Position numbers and translations under genes: made by a program. From Mesostigma viride (taxonomy: Eukaryota; Streptophyta; Mesostigmatophyceae; Mesostigmatales; Mesostigmataceae), in contig RPFO01000389.1 in the NCBI GenBank assembly GCA_009746045.1, positions 1,213,482-1,277,481 on the forward strand: DNA of 64,000 nucleotides. The letters are read 5' to 3'. Shown piece after piece: positions 2,457-35,567 of this stretch; the first letter of the stretch is position 1, and every line of letters begins with the position of its first letter. Under the pieces are notes generated by a model. The model searched no databases. It was not told the DNA's origin and worked only from the letters and a program-made list of their open reading frames with translations.

Positions 2457-3071
2457 TCCCAGCAAAGCCATAGTACACCTTCCGTTTCGACCGCCATGTC
2501 GGCCACTAGTCCGGATAGCTCAATGTGCACCTGACCTTGACACTAATCGCACAAACAGCCACAATTTTGCAAGCAAGAAGACATGGCTACCTCGGCATTT
2601 CATGAAATGTACTTCGTGAAATGCATTTCGTGAAATGTACTAAGGAACGTGATTGGCCGGCGTTCGCTCGCCAAATCTCGCAAAATGTACTAAGGCACGT
2701 GATTGGTCCCGCAAAATGTACTAAGGAACGTGATTGGCCGGCGAAGATTCTGTTTGCTGCAATTAAAATTCCCTACAGAATCTTCGCCGGCCAATCACGT
2801 TCCTTAGTACATTTTGCGGGACCAATCACGTGCCTTAGTACATTTTGCGAGATTTGGCGAGCGAACGCCGGCCAATCACGTTCCTTAGTACATTTCACGA
2901 AATGCATTTCACGAAGTACATTTCATGAAATGCCGAGGTAGCCATGTCTTCTTGCTTGCAAAATTGTGGCTGTTTGTGCGATTAGTGTCAAGGTCAGGTG
3001 CACATTGAGCTATCCGGACTAGTGGCCGACATGGCGGTCGAAACGGAAGGTGTGCTATGGCTTTGCTGGGA
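2457..3071. repeat. Near-perfect palindrome, two 297-bp arms
   Basis: The left arm 2457-2753 is the reverse complement of the right arm 2775-3071, with a 21-base AT-rich centre (2754-2774). I saw one mismatch in the arms. Each arm contains three copies of a unit reading TGTACTAAGG(A/C)ACGTGATTGG and several GAAATG/TACTTCG half-palindromes. The outer 74 bases of each arm are the first 25 codons of the same open frame, so two divergent frames start with identical residues. This resembles a foldback-type transposon end or a recent inverted duplication. Confidence 0.9.
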
Positions 3072-6356: not shown

Positions 6357-7130
6357 CTAGCAAATGTCACTACCTTTACCTATGCCTGACCTTACAAGTT
6401 GAGGATGGTCTAATGTAGTGGCAAACAGGTTATTTACAACAATTCACAGTTTTCTGACATAGTTTGAGGCAACTATACTTACCAAAATGCTTGAAAAAGG
6501 CAAAAATTGCACCATTTATGCTAGCAAACGTCACTATTTTGAGATCAAACTGGGCCCAAACTTGGCCCATGGTCTAATCTAGTGGTGTTTAGGTTGCTTC
6601 CAACATTTCATAGCTTTCTGACATAGTTTGATATTGTTTAGTAGCTTACACTGAGCAAAATGCTTGAAAATGGCAAAAAATGCACCATTTATGCTAGCAA
6701 ACGTCACTATTTTGACGTCAGACTGAGCCCAAACTTGGCCCATGGTCTAATCTAGTGGTGTTTAGGTTGCTTCCAATATTTCATAGCTTTATGACGTAGT
6801 TTGATATTGTTTAGTAGCTTACACTGAGCAAAATGCTTGAAAATGGCAAAAAATGCAGTATTTATGCTAGCAAACGTCACTATTTTGAGTTCAGATTGAC
6901 CCCAAACTTTGTGCATGGTCTATTCTAGTGGTAATTAGGTTGCTTGCAAATATCCATGATGGTTTGACGTGATTTATTACTGTTTCCTATTTATTACTAT
7001 TTAATTTAACAAAAAATGACAAAAATGTACCTTCATTGCTAGCAAATGTCACCAAGATGACGTCCGATCGATACCAAACTTTGTACGAGGTCTATTTTGG
7101 TTGCAAACATCATGCATGACAATTTTCAGC
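6357..7130 (+). repeat. Tandem repeat, five copies of a ~172-bp unit
   Basis: The marker GCTAGCAAA(C/T)GTCAC recurs with starts near 6357, 6521, 6694, 6867 and 7039, spacings 164, 173, 173 and 172. Units 2-4 are about 90% alike and the outer ones are more diverged. The array ends about 20 bases before the AGTACATTTTGCG motif at 7155-7167, as expected for a subterminal repeat of a DNA transposon. Confidence 0.88.
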
Positions 7131-10386: not shown

Positions 10387-12390
10387 ATCGGATTTCTTTG
10401 AAAAGAGTTTCTCGAAGTGAGGCGGGGAATAAGGCCGCTCACGGGAGCCGCCTGGATGGTCGGCTGAACCGGGCGGGTTTGGCAGATGTAACCGGATTTG
10501 GCTAATGGCTGGCGACCTGGAATTGTTAGTAGGGGCAGTGGCCCTATTGTGCTACAATCTCGAAACAATCTTATGCTTAAAGTTTGACAGGGCCGGGTTT
10601 GTTGAACCGGTTTGTTGAATGATAATTAGAACCTTTCGGAAAGGGTATTTGATTGGTTGTTGTTTTTGTGGTACGGTAGGTGTCGCTACATTCTCAGGTT
10701 GGCGTGTTAAGTTAAGCTCGGTTGCTGATGTCAGCCCCGTGCTAGGGCAGTTTGACTACTTTGGCGGCGTAGTGACATTGTTGTGGTCTTTTTTCTTGTA
10801 AACGTTGGCTGAGCGCCGACGGCTGAGGCTATGGCGGTACAAGAAGTGCCTCACCAGCCTTGCGCTCAGCATGGGTGCGGGGCTAAAATTTGTTAACCAA
10901 ATTTCCGGCATCCATGATCCCTGGCTGCTTAAGGCGGTTGGGATTCATGGCTGCCACTGGCCCGGAATTAATGTCCGGGTGATCGGGGTTTAAATGCGAA
11001 GCGGGGGCTGATGCATTATTTAATGGCTGGTTTGTTTGAAAGAAACGGCCAGCTGGCCGGGTTGGGCAAGGGCTAGCTTGCTTGATGGTTCCGTACCTGG
11101 GGATGCTTGCGCCTCGGGTTGGGCTGTCGGCAGGCTGGCCTGCCTTTGAGTTGTCTCGTACCTGGAAATGCTTGCATTCCGGGTTGGGCTTGGCTTGAGG
11201 GCCGCCGCGGCTCGGGGGGTAAAAAATTTAAGTCACCGTTGTGGGACACGGAGCCTCGGCGCAGGAGGCAAGGGCTGAAAACCAACTTGATTTCGTATTC
11301 AGTGGTATTTCCACTTTTTTGTACGGAAGGAGTGTTTATGTGCTCGGCACTAGGTTGGTTGCTATTCAAAAAAGTTGTAAACTGGGCGTCGGCTGGAATC
11401 AGCGGTGCCAGTCAGCAGCTTTTGCTTTGACTTTGTGTTCCGCGACAGCACCCCTTAGCGGACCAGAGAAGAGGTCGGCAACGAGGTCAGCGGGGGCCCC
11501 CGAGTGGGGTCAAAAATGCGAGCTGTGTCGATCCACAGTGCATGAGTTTTTGTGCATTCACAGTCGCTGGGAATTAAATCTGTTTTCTGGCAACGGAGAG
11601 CGCCCATCGCGACAGGACAGCTTTTGACGGGAAAGGAAATGGTGCTTCTTTAGCGGACCGGAGGGCCAGGAAGGGGAGGTTGGGTAATCGCGAGCCATGC
11701 CTAAGGAGTTCTTAATAGCGGTTCTGTAACCGCTACCTGTCTGTATGCATCTACTTATTGTTTTAACAAAGATGCTGGTGACTATGGTGAGCAAACGGGT
11801 GTATGAATCGGATTTCTTTGAAAAGAGTTTCTCGAAGTGAGGCGGGGAATAAGGCCGCTCACGGGAGCCGCCTGGATGGTCGGCTGAACCGGGCGGGTTT
11901 GGCAGATGTAACCGGATTTGGCTAATGGCTGGCGACCTGGAATTGTTAGTAGGGGCAGTGGCCCTATTGTGCTACAATCTCGAAACAATCTTATGCTTAA
12001 AGTTTGACAGGGCCGGGTTTGTTGAACCGGTTTGTTGAATGATAATTAGAACCTTTCGGAAAGGGTATTTGATTGGTTGTTGTTTTTGTGGTACGGTAGG
12101 TGTCGCTACATTCTCAGGTTGGCGTGTTAAGTTAAGCTCGGTTGCTGATGTCAGCCCCGTGCTAGGGCAGTTTGACTACTTCGGCGGCGTAGTGACATTG
12201 TTGTGGTCTTTTTTCTTGTCCCACCCACCCACCCTCTTTGGTCAGTTTGGTGGCCTGGTCTGCGCGGGTAATCGCGAGCCATGCCTAAGGAGTTCTTAAT
12301 AGCGGTTCTGTAACCGCTACCTGTCTGTATGCATCTACTTATTGTTTTAACAATGATGCTGGTGACTATGGTGAGCAAACGGGTGTATGA
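10387..12390 (+). mobile_element. SDR-1, non-autonomous DIRS/PAT-like element with split direct repeats
   Basis: Order on the plus strand: A1 10387-10799 (413 bp), internal 10800-11681, B1 11682-11806 (125 bp), A2 11807-12219, spacer 12220-12265, B2 12266-12390. A1/A2 and B1/B2 differ by one visible base each. The spacer opens with CCCACCCACCCACCC. The interrupted Gypsy reads ...CCCATA|ACGGGTC..., matching the uninterrupted CCCATAACAGGTC of Gypsy-D, so no target duplication was made. This A1-internal-B1A2B2 layout is the split direct repeat known from PAT/Ngaro/Kangaroo/TOC elements, which integrate by a tyrosine recombinase. The 882-bp internal part has no recombinase or RT that I can see, so it must be mobilised in trans. 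Confidence 0.85.
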
Positions 12391-13583
12391 ACGGGTCTAA
12401 GCACTTCATTCATCAACATTTGAAAAGAGGCAGGAGAATTACAGAGTCCCATAGCCGCTACTCTAAACTGATAATGACCAAACGGGGTAGCAAAGGCGGT
12501 TTTATGACAATCCTCGGGCGCTATACGCAGTTGCCAAAAACCATCCGCACAATCCAGTACAGTGAAACAGGTAGAACCTTTAACCTTATTAAATATATCA
12601 TCAATACGAGGTAGAGGGTATTTAGACTTCACAGTGATATCATTTAACTTCCTGTAATCAGTAGTAACTAAACAAAACTTGCCATTAGGCGTAGGGACTA
12701 ACAGGACACCAGCTGAGTAGGGGGAGTTACTAGGCTCTATCAATCCTGCTTCTAATAGTGACACTAAAATCTGTTTTAGTCCCTTTAACTCGGTAGGGCC
12801 CATTCTATACATCGGAGAGTGCGTAGGAACTGCACCGTCCTTAATAACTACACGGTGTAAAACAGAACGAGGAGGAGGATAAGAAGAAGTCTTTTCTTCA
12901 AAAACTTTGGAGGAATCTATCACAGCCATGTATCTTACTATTTCGTTTTCAGTAAATCCCACCCCTATTGTATCCACTGTGTTCACATCTATATCCACAC
13001 TATTATTAGGGATAGGTATCTCCTGTACTTCTAACTGAAGGAACATACATAGTATATATCCATATTCCTTTAGTTCAGATCGCAATTCATCATTGGTCAT
13101 TAATACTTCAGGTATAGGTCTTACAGGAGGATCAACAGGTGTAGGAGGAGTAATGTCTACCAAGGATAAATTTTCTACTCTATAATGACGTTCCGGTACC
13201 CAGTAAGAGCTATCTGGAAACCAGATGACCATGGTATCATAATTAATAGTAATCTTATTATCCTGGTGCCAATCTAATCCTAGTAATACATCAGCGGTAG
13301 TGATAGGGCCTATAGTGGCTGTCAGGTTGACAGTACGTCCTTGTATGACCAGGGGAAGGGACACCGTACCCGGGGAATGACTGGTGCGACCGTCACCATA
13401 ATGGACAGTGACAGGCTTGGTGTGAGGGATAGGGACTAGTCCTAAACGCCTAACTAGGGCCTCGCTCACAAAGGAGCTAGCCGCACCGCTATCCACTAAC
13501 ACAGAGACATTCAAAAGTTCATCAGCATGCAAGAAGGGGTCTACAACAGTGTGGGGAACGGTTAAGCCACCATTCAAAAACAT
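12391..13583 (-). CDS. Gypsy-A pol, aspartic protease and RT N-terminal part
   Basis: Minus strand. Protease motif VLVDSGAASSFVS (D-S-G) lies near residue 30 and LLGLDWHQDN near residue 100. RT follows from about residue 260: PTHSPMYRMGPTELK, AGLIEPSNSPYSAGVLLVP, DYRKLNDITVKSKYPLPRIDD, FTVLDCADGFWQLRIAPED, FATPFGHYQFRVAAMGLCNSPASFQ. The frame stops at the SDR-1 insertion and resumes at 10386. There is one extra codon (VTTDYRKL) relative to Gypsy-D. The reading frame probably begins further upstream, at the G-run in gag near 13727. Confidence 0.88.
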
Positions 13584-14309: not shown

Positions 14310-16428
14310 ATACATTTCTTGTTTTTGGTCCATTGGAGTTCCTTCCCACCAAGAGAAACATTTATTTTACATTTTTGTGTGCTAGGCTTTATACGGACAG
14401 CCTATACCACACCTTCAAACTCAGTGCACATCATTATCAAGTTGGTTATTGTAGCACCATGCTGGGGGCCCAGCATACTCGAACAAAAGGTGTTGCCCCT
14501 CTTAGCAGCGTGGGTGGGTGGGTGGGAGCTGAAAAGAGGCCTCCCTACGTCCCCTACACCACTCTAAGTACTGACTATCATTCACATTGCGCCACGCAGG
14601 CCTGCCGGCTGGCGCAAGTACAAGGTGACTGACTGCCCATCACAGTTGCGCCACGCCTTGCGGCTAGCGCAGGTACAAGGTCTAGTGACGTACGTTAGAA
14701 GCTACCTAGGCCTGCACTCCGGAACCACACTCAGCCGCAAAAAAAGGGCCGGCCGGTGCAGTACCCTCGTGACAAGCGCTAGTCTTACGCTACCTACGGC
14801 AGGTCGGTCCCCTTTGAGCCCGTCCACGCGTCATATATAAAATGAGCGAAGCTCAACAAATACATTTCTTGTTTTTGGTCCATTGGAGTTCCTTCCCACC
14901 AAGAGAAACATTTATTTTACATTTTTGTGTGCTAGGCTTTATACGGACAGCCTATACCACACCTTCAAACTCAGTGCACATCATTATCAAGTTGGTTATT
15001 GTAGCACCATGCTGGGGGCCCAGCATACTCGAACACAAGGTGTTGCCCCCACACCTCCTACCTGGCCACCAAGGCTATCACCAACCTTGGTGCCGAGTTT
15101 CTTTCCGCCCCTGGCCCCCCTCCTGCATGCTGCTGCGGCTGCCGTACTGCCGCCCCCGTGTGGCCGCTACGGTTTCCCGGCGGACGCAGGGCGGCACCCA
15201 TGTCGTTTCCCCCGTTAGGGGGGCGGTTTCCAGCGGCTGCTCTGATTAGGCCTTACGCCCCCGGACCGTCTCTCACAAACCCAGGACCCATCACCAGCCC
15301 CACCCCCGAGGCTGGGATTTCCCGGCATTGAAACCTCTGTGGCGATAGGCCCTCTACCCTACCAAGGCCTTGGCTTGGAAACTGCTTAGCCAAGGCCCTG
15401 ACCAGGGCTTGTGTTGTTGTAGGAAATTTTTTATGGCATAGAGATGCCCCCCTGGCTGAACCGAACTCTTTATCGCTTTTCCTATAATGCATCATACAGG
15501 ATAAAAACAAGGCGATAAAACAGCAAGAATTTCAGCCCCGCCAGGCGAACATTCTTTGCTGAAAAACTGGGCAATGATGAAGAGCGCGCTCCTCCCACCA
15601 AGATTCGCTCCAGCCCCGCATCCTCCCCGAAACTCCCGTCTGGCCACAGGCCGAAAGATCGTGTCCGCTGTCAGGCTCTTGGCAGTTATGGGCTACCCTG
15701 GCACCCCACGCTAGCCATCTCCACGTTTAAGGCAGATTCGCCTCCACCTGTGATTCTTTCCACCGTAGCCGCTGGCCCTGGCCTGTATGGCTCCTTCCCT
15801 GACGTTGTCCGACTGAAAACGCAGCTTCCCCAGTGTCAGGAAGCTGCTTGCCGCACCCAGGGGTAGAGGGGAATCGTCAGTGGGCCCAGCGCCGGAAATC
15901 ACACCCTTTTACTCAAATCGTAGAGCCCCCCACCCGACAACCATTACCGTGGCCTGTAAAGGTAGGTGGCGAACATAAAGAACTTTATTCCAGGCCTCTC
16001 CACGCCCGGAGAGGCCGATAGCATCGTCTTACATTCAGCGCAGCCGCCATAGCGGCCAGCCGACCTTGCCAGCAAATGCTGGGATCAAGTTGCGAAGCTG
16101 AAAAGAGGCCTCCCTACGTCCCCTACACCACTCTAAGTACTGACTATCATTCACATTGCGCCACGCAGGCCTGCCGGCTGGCGCAAGTACAAGGTGACTG
16201 ACTGCCCATCACAGTTGCGCCACGCCTTGCGGCTAGCGCAGGTACAAGGTCTAGTGACGTACGTTAGAAGCTACCTAGGCCTGCACTCCGGAACCACACT
16301 CAGCCGCAAAAAAAGGGCCGGCCGGTGCAGTACCCTCGTGACAAGCGCTAGTCTTACGCTACCTACGGCAGGTCGGTCCCCTTTGAGCCCGTCCACGCGT
16401 CATATATAAAATGAGCGAAGCTCAACAA
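14310..16428 (-). mobile_element. SDR-2, non-autonomous DIRS/PAT-like element with split direct repeats
   Basis: Read on the minus strand the order is A1 16428-16096 (333 bp), internal 16095-15050 (1046 bp), B1 15049-14860 (190 bp), A2 14859-14527, spacer 14526-14500, B2 14499-14310. The spacer contains, on the plus strand, GGGTGGGTGGGTGGG. The interrupted gag reads ...CGAGCAC|GTACTTCTGC..., identical in layout to uninterrupted Gypsy-D, with no target duplication. The repeats have no obvious similarity to those of SDR-1 or SDR-3. No coding capacity is recognised in the internal part. Confidence 0.84.
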
Positions 16429-16799
16429 GTACTTCTGCGCCCGACAAATCTCTAATTCGTACCACACAACGGTCTGAAAGTGCCAAAAAACAGCCTTATT
16501 ACTCCTGTACGATGCAAATATAGTCGAAACATGCTAGATATTGGTAGGTAGCATGTTCAGGACACCAGTAGAAGGATTGCAACTTTCTGGACTTACCGGA
16601 CCTCAGCTGACCTATTTTTGGCATGTCTATTTTTAGCCGTTTTCCAGATTTTAATATAAACAAATACCTTTTTATGTGCAAATAAAGAGCTCTTGACCTG
16701 GCTGCTTGCAAGTATGTTGATACTCATGACTAAGAACTGTTCACAAGATCTGATGGTCATCCGACCGCATTTGGTGACAAAATGCCACCAAATGCTAGC

Positions 16800-17290
16800 A
16801 AAAATGTGCGTTTTTCGCATTTTTTATCACATTCCATCGCAGTTTCCATACCAGATGTGCTCAGTTGAGGCTGGAAACTTGCATGCATCTTTAACACAAT
16901 TATTTTAGACATTCCACAAAAATTCAGGTCCAGCATAGGTTATTTGATGTAAGTTTTCTCACAAATGTTACCAAAAATGCGCGTTTTTCGCATTTTTCAT
17001 CACATTTCATTGCAGTTTCCATACAAGATGTGCTCAGTTGAGGCTGGAAACTTGCATGCATCTTTAACATCACTATTTTAGACATTCCACAAAAATTCAG
17101 GTCCAGCATAGGGTATTTGATGTCAGTTTGCTCACAAATGTTACAAAAAATGTGCGTTTTTCACATTTTTCACCGCATTTCATTGCAGTTTCCATACAAG
17201 ATGTGCTCAGTTGAGGCTGGAAACTTGCATGCATCTTTAACATCACTATTTTAGACATTCCACAAAAATTCAGGTCCATCATGATCTGTT
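16800..17290. repeat. Subterminal tandem repeat, three copies of ~174 bp
   Basis: Three head-to-tail units start near 16803, 16978 and 17152. Each has TGCGTTTTTCGCATTTTT, GTGCTCAGTTGAGGCTGG and TTCAGGTCCA. Units 2 and 3 are nearly identical. It sits about 340 bp inside the left terminus of the DNA transposon, downstream of its transposase genes. Confidence 0.9.
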
Positions 17291-33017: not shown

Positions 33018-33061
33018 CCTTCCCAAGTTGGATGTCAAGTCTACCCCTCAACAGTTTTTCA

Positions 33062-35567
33062 TGTCCCACGTAGCTCCCACAAAAACCAGCATCTTCATTA
33101 AAACAATAAGTGGAAGCATACATGTGACACTGTTACGCCTCGGGTTTCTACCACTACCTCTACCTCTACCTGGCCTGATGCTACCTAAACTAGTCAAGCC
33201 GCCTCTAGTTAAACCCCTAGCGAAAGACGAACGAGACGATCCAGATCTCAGTGCATTAACGTAAGTATTACTATAATACGCCATAAGCCATTTACACAAC
33301 CCGTTTACTCCAGGAATAGAGGAAGGAAACACAACTACACTGCCGTGACCCAAGCCTATATGTGTTAATTCATTTAACACACGCCGAGTGCACACACGAG
33401 AGGTAGAACGTGCATAAATGGTCACCAACGGTCCAACACACTCGGGCCGACCTGGCCCTCGCCTACAGATGCACGCTGGTCCACTACATTCTACCAAAGG
33501 ATCAGGACCACTAATAAAGTACGCGGCGCGGCGCCCAAAGGCACCCAATGTACCACGGTACTGTTACGAGGACAATAGTGTCCCAGTAGGAACTACACGT
33601 AAACCTAGAGACAACCAAGGCAAAGGACCTAATTTACGTCCGTAACTACAACGAATTGTTACGCGACGTAACAGACACGTTTGACATGCCCGGAGGCACG
33701 CCGTTCAAGGCCCTTCATGAAGTACGTTGCCCTAGAGGCAACCAAGACAAGGGTGGGTGGGTGGGGAGCAAAGAAAGAGGCCGACAAAACCAGCCAGAGC
33801 GGCTTTTAGTCGCAAAACCTCCCTTATCCCTAGCTAACTGACGTCATTAAACCCTTATGTTCAGTGATGCTAGTAAGACGCTAACCGTACAGACCGGGGG
33901 TAGAATATCCCGAATCTGCACGGCTAGTATTAAATAATGCGTAGGTTGTTCTTTTCAGGGGCACTGCACCTCACGCCCCGTTCCGCCCGGGTATAATCAA
34001 CCCAAGCGCGGAACGCACATTTTATTTAATTCATTTTTCAACCATGCACTATACTGCATCTACTAATCACAAAAGCTCTAGCCAAACAGCTACGAGAAAA
34101 CACTACGACCTATAAGCCGCTCATCCAGCGGCCTCTTGTTCCCGCATTCACGTATAGAAGAAACTCCGTTCAAAGAACCCCGATTCATGTCCCACGTAGC
34201 TCCCACAAAAACCAGCATCTTCATTAAAACAATAAGTGGAAGCATACATGTGACACGTTTGACATGCCCGGAGGCACGCCGTTCAAGGCCCTTCATGAAG
34301 TACGTTGCCCAATCACCCCCGCCCTGGCTTTCCCTTGAAGCCGCACTCCACCTTGCTCGTTGTCACAAGTGACCGCCCTGCCGCAAAACGGGAGCCCCCC
34401 CACATTGGGAGGCGTGTGCCCGGCGGCTGTGGATGCATGGCCAGGCCCAAAAAGGCCCAGCGCATTTGCACTGCGATTGCGCACGGCCAGCCTATCATGA
34501 CCCCTCTCGGGGCCCCGAGTCGGTACCGCTATGGCCGTCTCCCCATAGACCCGGGGTGCTTCGAGAAAAAACGTGGACCTAGCCCAGGCCCCGCCAGCCC
34601 GGATGCCCGAGGCCACAGCCCCAGGCACCTGGCTGAACGAGAGTCCGTTCAGCCAAGACCGCATTCCCCCCGAGGTTTCTATGCGTGGGGAAAAAATTTC
34701 TAGCTTAGGCGCTTTTCCTATCGCCGTCCCCAGCCCCAACCCCCCCCCCTCGGCGGAAGGCAATTGCAAAGTTTGCTGGCCAGCAGCAATTTCCGAAGAA
34801 AAAGCCTCAGGCCGCGGACCGAGACACGGGTCGCCAGTGCCAGCCATCCGGCTCCAACCCGGGGTGCAAGCATCCCCAGGTACGGAGCACCAGCTCGCGC
34901 ACTGGGCCGACCAAGCGACAGTTGAGCACCTGTCACGGCACCCGGCCCACCAAAGACCCCAAGCTGGGGAAAAGGTGCGGACCGGAGGTAATCATTTTCT
35001 TTTCTTTTAGTTAACCGGCCGAGGAACTACGCCTGGCCGGTTAACAACTGGAAGTCTCACCACTGGCCAAGTGGCCGGTGCAACCAGTGCTTTTGGGATT
35101 TTGCTCCGCAGCACCCATAGCTGCGGCTGCCGCCGCAACGACAACGAGCAAAGAAAGAGGCCGACAAAACCAGCCAGAGCGGCTTTTAGTCGCAAAACCT
35201 CCCTTATCCCTAGCTAACTGACGTCATTAAACCCTTATGTTCAGTGATGCTAGTAAGACGCTAACCGTACAGACCGGGGGTAGAATATCCCGAATCTGCA
35301 CGGCTAGTATTAAATAATGCGTAGGTTGTTCTTTTCAGGGGCACTGCACCTCACGCCCCGTTCCGCCCGGGTATAATCAACCCAAGCGCGGAACGCACAT
35401 TTTATTTAATTCATTTTTCAACCATGCACTATACTGCATCTACTAATCACAAAAGCTCTAGCCAAACAGCTACGAGAAAACACTACGACCTATAAGCCGC
35501 TCATCCAGCGGCCTCTTGTTCCCGCATTCACGTATAGAAGAAACTCCGTTCAAAGAACCCCGATTCA
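33062..35567 (-). mobile_element. SDR-3, non-autonomous DIRS/PAT-like element carrying a solo Gypsy LTR
   Basis: Minus-strand order: A1 35567-35146 (422 bp), internal 35145-34311 (835 bp), B1 34310-34188 (123 bp), A2 34187-33766, spacer 33765-33733, B2 33732-33062. B2 is enlarged by a 543-bp solo LTR. The two A copies look identical. The spacer carries GGGTGGGTGGGTGGGG on the plus strand. Target: CAGTTTTTCA|CTTTTATTATG, matching uninterrupted Gypsy-D gag. Only a shared TTCA at the crossover is seen. The internal part has one 184-residue minus frame (34293-34847) with no recognisable domain. Confidence 0.85.
33131..33673 (-). repeat. Solo Gypsy LTR inside SDR-3
   Basis: 543 bp, TGTTACG...CGTAACA, flanked by GACAC on both sides (33126-33130 and 33674-33678). 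The other copy of the same SDR-3 repeat, at 34188-34310, shows the empty site ACATGTGACACGTTTGAC. This is LTR-LTR recombination after a complete Gypsy insertion. Confidence 0.95.

Follow-up and report, generated by a model that had tools for sequence, protein, structure and literature searches.

Split direct repeats and solo A-B copies have been described, in the parts of the sources covered here, for PAT, TOC, Kangaroo, Ngaro and VIPER elements (PMC4157794, PMC8547959, PMC6681497, PMC9210276), and DIRS1-like elements have been proposed to pass through a circular intermediate, which arises by end-matching, and to integrate without leaving a target-site duplication (PMC3266345, in its covered part). 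Quadruplex motifs are known from other retrotransposons: the covered sections of two studies report that in plant LTR retrotransposons they occupy set places relative to the LTRs, depending on the strand (PMC3902901), and that in Ty1 a G-rich sequence on the template strand yields strand-specific shortened cDNA, which the authors explain by a block of reverse transcription after the second jump, and that an inserted quadruplex motif lowers transposition (PMC8074290). As judged by titles and the starts of abstracts, we found no report in the open-licence literature of a quadruplex at the A2/B2 junction of tyrosine-recombinase/DIRS retrotransposons.

Structure of the three elements

Self-alignment of the window, that is, the whole 64,000-nucleotide stretch of Mesostigma viride DNA analysed here (located on contig C1491), revealed three elements with the order A1-I-B1-A2-x-B2, where I is the internal region and x the junction spacer that contains the motif: SDR-1 in plus orientation, SDR-2 and SDR-3 in minus orientation (Table 1). 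Such A1-internal-B1-A2-B2 split direct repeats are those of SDR-type tyrosine-recombinase retrotransposons. All three elements lie inside retrotransposon DNA, relatives of which elsewhere in the window provide empty sites; alignments with these, inspected by eye, revealed no target-site duplication at any of the elements, only 2-4 bases being common with the element junction. They do not have the intact terminal LTRs and target-site duplication of LTR retrotransposons. None of the three contains an ORF of 200 aa, and none encodes a reverse transcriptase and a tyrosine recombinase, so that they can at most be non-autonomous and moved in trans. From the absence of long ORFs, the A1-I-B1-A2-x-B2 layout and the lack of target-site duplications, we infer that they belong, as non-autonomous members, to the split-direct-repeat retrotransposons of the tyrosine-recombinase kind. 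That transcription runs from A to B is weakly suggested by a TATA-like site close to the start of A (SDR-2 only) and, in the B repeat, by AATAAA or TGTAA (SDR-2) and TGTAA (SDR-1), words that are lacking in SDR-3's own B and that recur in A and I also.

Table 1. Positions in the window of the components of SDR-1, SDR-2 and SDR-3.
Feature	Positions	Strand	Remarks
SDR-1 A1 repeat	10388..10799	+	414 bp alignment, 99.8% identity to A2; preceding AA common to target
SDR-1 internal region	10800..11681	+	no ORF of 200 aa
SDR-1 B1 repeat	11682..11807	+	GGG start
SDR-1 A2 repeat	11808..12219	+	end flush with motif
SDR-1 motif CCCACCCACCCACCC	12220..12234	+	G-rich on minus strand
SDR-1 remaining junction spacer x	12235..12265	+	31 nt
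SDR-1 B2 repeat	12266..12391	+	GGG start
SDR-2 A1 repeat	16096..16428	-	337 bp alignment, 99.7% identity to A2
SDR-2 internal region	15050..16095	-	no ORF of 200 aa
SDR-2 B1 repeat	14860..15049	-	GGGG start
SDR-2 A2 repeat	14527..14859	-	end flush with motif
SDR-2 motif CCCACCCACCCACCC in element orientation	14512..14526	-	
SDR-2 remaining junction spacer x	14500..14511	-	12 nt
SDR-2 B2 repeat	14310..14499	-	
SDR-3 A1 repeat	35146..35567	-	422 bp, 100% identity to A2
SDR-3 internal region	34311..35145	-	no ORF of 200 aa
SDR-3 B1 repeat	34188..34310	-	GGG start
SDR-3 A2 repeat	33766..34187	-	end flush with motif
SDR-3 motif CCCACCCACCCACCC in element orientation	33751..33765	-	
SDR-3 remaining junction spacer x	33733..33750	-	18 nt
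SDR-3 B2 repeat	33062..33732	-	interrupted at ~33131-33673; B1 matches 33058-33134 and 33674-33732

The insert that interrupts the B2 repeat of SDR-3 (33131-33673) has relatives at several other places of the region and is probably a nested solo LTR. Near the B end, SDR-1, SDR-3 and a solo copy (C1491:1296.4k) have in common a block CTTATTGTTTTAA..AAG, perhaps a 3'-end processing signal. The window also contains an inverted repeat (2457-3071), whose two arms of 297 nt are 100% complementary and lie 21 nt apart, and two tandem arrays of the same 173-bp period (6474-6992 and 16698-17282).

The junction motif and its genomic background

The window contains three copies of the 15-mer GGGTGGGTGGGTGGG (on the minus strand in SDR-1 and on the plus strand in SDR-2 and SDR-3), compared with a mean of 0 in 100 shuffled sequences. 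Each copy, read in element orientation, is a (CCCA)3CCC motif at the A2/B2 junction of an element devoid of target-site duplications. Both the 15-mer search and the self-alignment agree in this with the earlier note, which had also rightly described the A1/I and I/B1 borders of the three elements as free of the motif. With four runs of at least three G and loops of 1-7 nt, its sequence is that of a potential G-quadruplex. No match to a known structured RNA family was obtained (0 Rfam matches in the window at gathering scores), and we reject this possibility.

The earlier note had named a high genomic background as a potential objection. The bare 15-mer is indeed abundant, with 68,570 + 68,874 = 137,444 overlapping matches in the 440-Mb genome (2,243 contigs), the first 100 listed of which all lie inside a few long tandem arrays, whereas isolated sites, defined by exactly four runs and non-A flanks, are few (1,301 + 1,406 = 2,707 in 440 Mb). 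This pattern misses A-flanked motifs, such as that of SDR-2 or those in longer arrays, and its reversed version is uninformative as a control since it is identical read backwards. In the window together with its flanks (264 kb, of which 95,820 are N and 168 kb are readable), the only exact copies are those of the three SDR junctions. The probability of the motif being present in every one of the three x regions is bounded at 2e-7, treating all 137,444 matches as independent and evenly spread; this bound and the count of isolated sites lead us to reject chance and microsatellite background as a full explanation.

A junction module common to several families

The earlier note had considered the repeats of the three elements otherwise unrelated, which was overstated. 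SDR-1 and SDR-3 are 73-74% similar over 123 bp across the B1/A2 border and also have internal pieces in common; judged by sequence, they are distant relatives. SDR-2 has in common with SDR-1 a segment of about 70 bp around the junction, which includes the motif, and little else; with SDR-3 it shares a segment of about 30 bp. Two solo A-x-B relatives in the window flanks extend the comparison: one, 62% similar to SDR-1, has the junction CCCACCCGCCCTCCC, with two loops altered and the four runs intact, and the other, 71% similar to SDR-2, has the junction CCCACCCACCCATAC. One solo copy has only three runs left. In all five junctions (three SDR elements and two solo relatives) the motif starts 0 nt from the A2 end, this border being set by A1/A2 in the SDR elements and by alignment to the family in the solo relatives. 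The B repeat, which starts with GGG or GGGG in the three SDR elements, is found 12, 12, 18, 18 and 31 nt from the motif.

The motif is part of a longer module, GGYCTYTTTY.../(CCCA)3CCC, a conserved unit of about 30 nt. In the window and its flanks, all five occurrences of GG[CT]CT[CT]TT followed, after a gap of 3-12 nt, by CCCACCC are A-x-B junctions. Genome-wide, the pattern GGYCTYTTTN{4,10}CCCACCCACCCACCC has 633 + 622 = 1,255 matches and its reversed version 0 + 0 (440 Mb), the true number of sites being somewhat smaller than 1,255 because five of 100 listed matches are second matches to a five-run site. A hand count of the A-end types among 100 listed matches gave 15 of SDR-1, 24 of SDR-2, 16 of SDR-2b and 45 of SDR-3. 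On contig C1, 29 of the 87 isolated motifs coincide, by eye, with module junctions, and about 27 others are located in local clusters. At least four A-end types have an x that opens with the same fixed module, consisting of a pyrimidine tract at the end of A and then (CCCA)3CCC, and the rest of x and the last A bases vary between families. The exact SDR-3 junction has 0 occurrences in viral contigs.

Conservation of the C-runs

We surveyed the junctions of two families using two anchors between which the motif could vary freely, non-exact junctions being selected by eye from the listings. SDR-2 junctions occur at 199 places; among 100 listed, 78 are exact, seven have five runs and 94 retain at least four C-runs, six being broken. 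SDR-3 junctions occur at 430 places; among 100 listed, 88 are exact and 97 have four runs, including one of 14 nt in which the preceding C completes the first run, and three are broken. Some copies have 3, 5, 6 or 8 units. Substitutions over the 181 junctions of fifteen bases (other lengths, 16/100 in SDR-2 and 3/100 in SDR-3, were left out) affect 11 of 543 loop positions and 6 of 2172 C-run positions (p=7e-5, a value to be taken as a guide only since the junction copies are related and not independent). Six of the 11 loop changes are A-to-C, which could result from slippage; when these are discounted, 5/543 remain (p=0.050, with the same proviso). The junction module is conserved, and the motif is very probably a functional element; whether it acts as a quadruplex, as its sequence may suggest, is in our view an even bet.

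The same conservation might concern a linear sequence, either a duplex binding site of the CACCC/GT-box type or, read on the other strand together with the adjacent purines, a polypurine-like primer or an RNA signal. This is the main rival to a folded structure because the conserved unit of about 30 nt also holds the pyrimidine tract GGYCTYTTTY, for which a quadruplex has no need. On the opposite strand, a purine-rich stretch such as AGCTGAAAAGAGGCC comes after the G-runs, and the A repeat begins there, in the way that an LTR starts after a polypurine tract. However, the solo relative of SDR-1 has altered loop bases and four intact C-runs, and loop changes exceed run changes per site, which points to a structure built on runs more than to a fixed word. 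We regard a purely linear signal as unlikely.

Recombinase genes and an element devoid of the motif

A profile search of the genome for the phage-integrase family (PF00589) yielded at least 150 matches (824 candidates, 150 of them scored), mostly belonging to three groups according to the part of the profile matched. Seven scored recombinase genes are located on contig C1, one matching profile positions 21-166, one 15-167 and five 27-167. In the first two, an isolated motif lies on the same strand at 717 and 884 nt, respectively, downstream of the gene, and the five genes of group 27-167 have none within 27 kb. For a random place on C1, the probability of a motif at most 1 kb downstream on the same strand is 0.0025, giving 1.3e-4 for at least two of seven genes, with the 1-kb limit picked after the distances were known. 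Judged by distance and strand, these motifs may mark the A2/B2 junctions of the two recombinase genes, which are candidate partners of the three elements. No autonomous element with any of the four A-end types was detected within 10 kb of the seven genes. A scan of ten long frames in the window flanks did not reveal an autonomous element either: five had no Pfam match and the other five matched gag, RNase H or zinc-knuckle domains or, in one case and below the cut-off, TFIIA.

Two other recombinase genes precede a junction of the SDR-3 type on their own strand, by 2.1 kb (C58:539116-541640) and 2.8 kb (C106:10443-13721). Group 15-167 forms blocks of about 45-115 kb on several contigs (for example C1391:761019-807647, C1480:2261816-2314837 and C1579:2619577-2734282), which might mark centromere-like regions. 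Four phage-integrase matches on C2011 and C1532 score far above the rest and are perhaps due to bacterial contamination or transfer.

A fourth element, SDR-4 (C1491:1300577-1302210, equivalent to L043:3096-4729), lies 23 kb beyond the window, with an A repeat of 394 bp, an internal region of about 650 bp, a B repeat of 90 bp and a 15-bp x free of the motif. The genome has a single occurrence of this exact junction. The motif therefore marks a lineage and not all SDR elements. The earlier note had named families lacking it as a refutation: at least one exists, and the generality of the motif fails with SDR-4 and with the five recombinase genes of a single group. Since SDR-4 does without the motif and five of the seven C1 recombinase genes have no isolated one within 27 kb, SDR copying seems not to need it generally.

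Proximity to recombinase genes also bears on whether the motif is a neutral relic, that is, a (CCCA)n microsatellite captured in the x of an ancestral element and inherited by its descendants. The 15-mer is very common in arrays of this genome, the number of units varies in some copies, and SDR-1 and SDR-3 are related, all of which would fit a relic. However, exactly four units predominate in both families surveyed, the C-runs have stayed intact despite a divergence that has left A and B only 62-74% similar, or less, and the motif is found near genes of two recombinase groups, which makes such an origin quite improbable as the reason for its presence. An exchange of x modules between families by template switching or recombination, so that sharing would reflect spread and not constraint, would agree with how little SDR-1 and SDR-2 have in common besides the ~70 bp around the junction but is very improbable, as the rest of x and the last A bases differ between families and each family has an A end of its own.

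Possible role of the motif in element copying

A role of the motif in the life cycle of the elements is likely because its link with the junction is real, recurs at more than 1,000 places and, by position, includes two tyrosine-recombinase genes. The earlier note had suggested strand transfer, template jumping or replication arrest; strand transfer or replication arrest would fit the anatomy of the elements and the published Ty1 experiment, conservation being what the data show and folding and mechanism being our inference. The best explanation as a whole, to which we assign a probability of about 0.38, is that the module is a conserved cis-element which perhaps forms, on the first-strand cDNA, a quadruplex that stops second-strand synthesis at the A2 end.

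In a circular form, the element would read [B-A]-I-[B-A]-x, with an LTR-like B-A on both sides of I and with x as the meeting of the outer ends. The RNA would run from A1 through I, B1, A2 and x into B2. First-strand synthesis would copy the C-rich RNA unhindered, and the resulting cDNA would carry GGGTGGGTGGGTGGG, which we take to be of the very stable single-T-loop quadruplex type. Second-strand synthesis arriving from A2 would then meet the folded G-runs and halt flush with the A2 end. The strand ending at the A end could pair with the complement of A1 and be extended into I, so that A1 would be rebuilt from A2 in each cycle and the boundary of the A repeat would be set at the motif. The one-sided flushness of the motif (0 nt to A2, 12-31 nt to B) is what would be expected if the synthesis that stops arrives from A2. 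The action of the motif as a second-strand stop at this end is a tentative proposal. More doubtful is the extension to a lineage of tyrosine-recombinase retrotransposons in which the quadruplex on the first cDNA would serve as a one-way stop, generating a strong-stop DNA for the transfer to A1 and thereby defining the split repeat.

If correct, this model would give tyrosine-recombinase retrotransposons, whose copying is poorly known, a structural signal acting in cis. To our knowledge, the rebuilding of split ends by SDR retrotransposons has been modelled but scarcely tested. A concrete handle is offered by a signal that is conserved at a single exact border and found in several non-autonomous families and near two recombinase genes: the junction sequence is short, and its mutation should shift the second-strand stop. 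Here, moreover, a quadruplex motif would have been retained in favour of retrotransposition and not against it.

Comparison with known systems

The elements described here have the A1-internal-B1-A2-B2 order and the solo A-B copies of PAT/TOC/Kangaroo-like and Ngaro-like elements (DIRS order), as far as the covered parts of the sources describe them, but differ from these in having no ORF of 200 aa and in the (CCCA)3CCC junction module, of which the same parts make no mention (PMC4157794, PMC8547959). Their insertion without target-site duplication resembles that of DIRS1-like elements, as presented in the covered part of that work (PMC3266345). In plant LTR retrotransposons, the quadruplex motifs reported in the sections covered are a statistical enrichment, in contrast with the single exact motif found here at a fixed nucleotide border of SDR elements (PMC3902901). 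Likewise, whereas the quadruplex motif of Ty1 was, according to the covered part of the study, an artificial insert (PMC8074290), that of the SDR elements is native and conserved.
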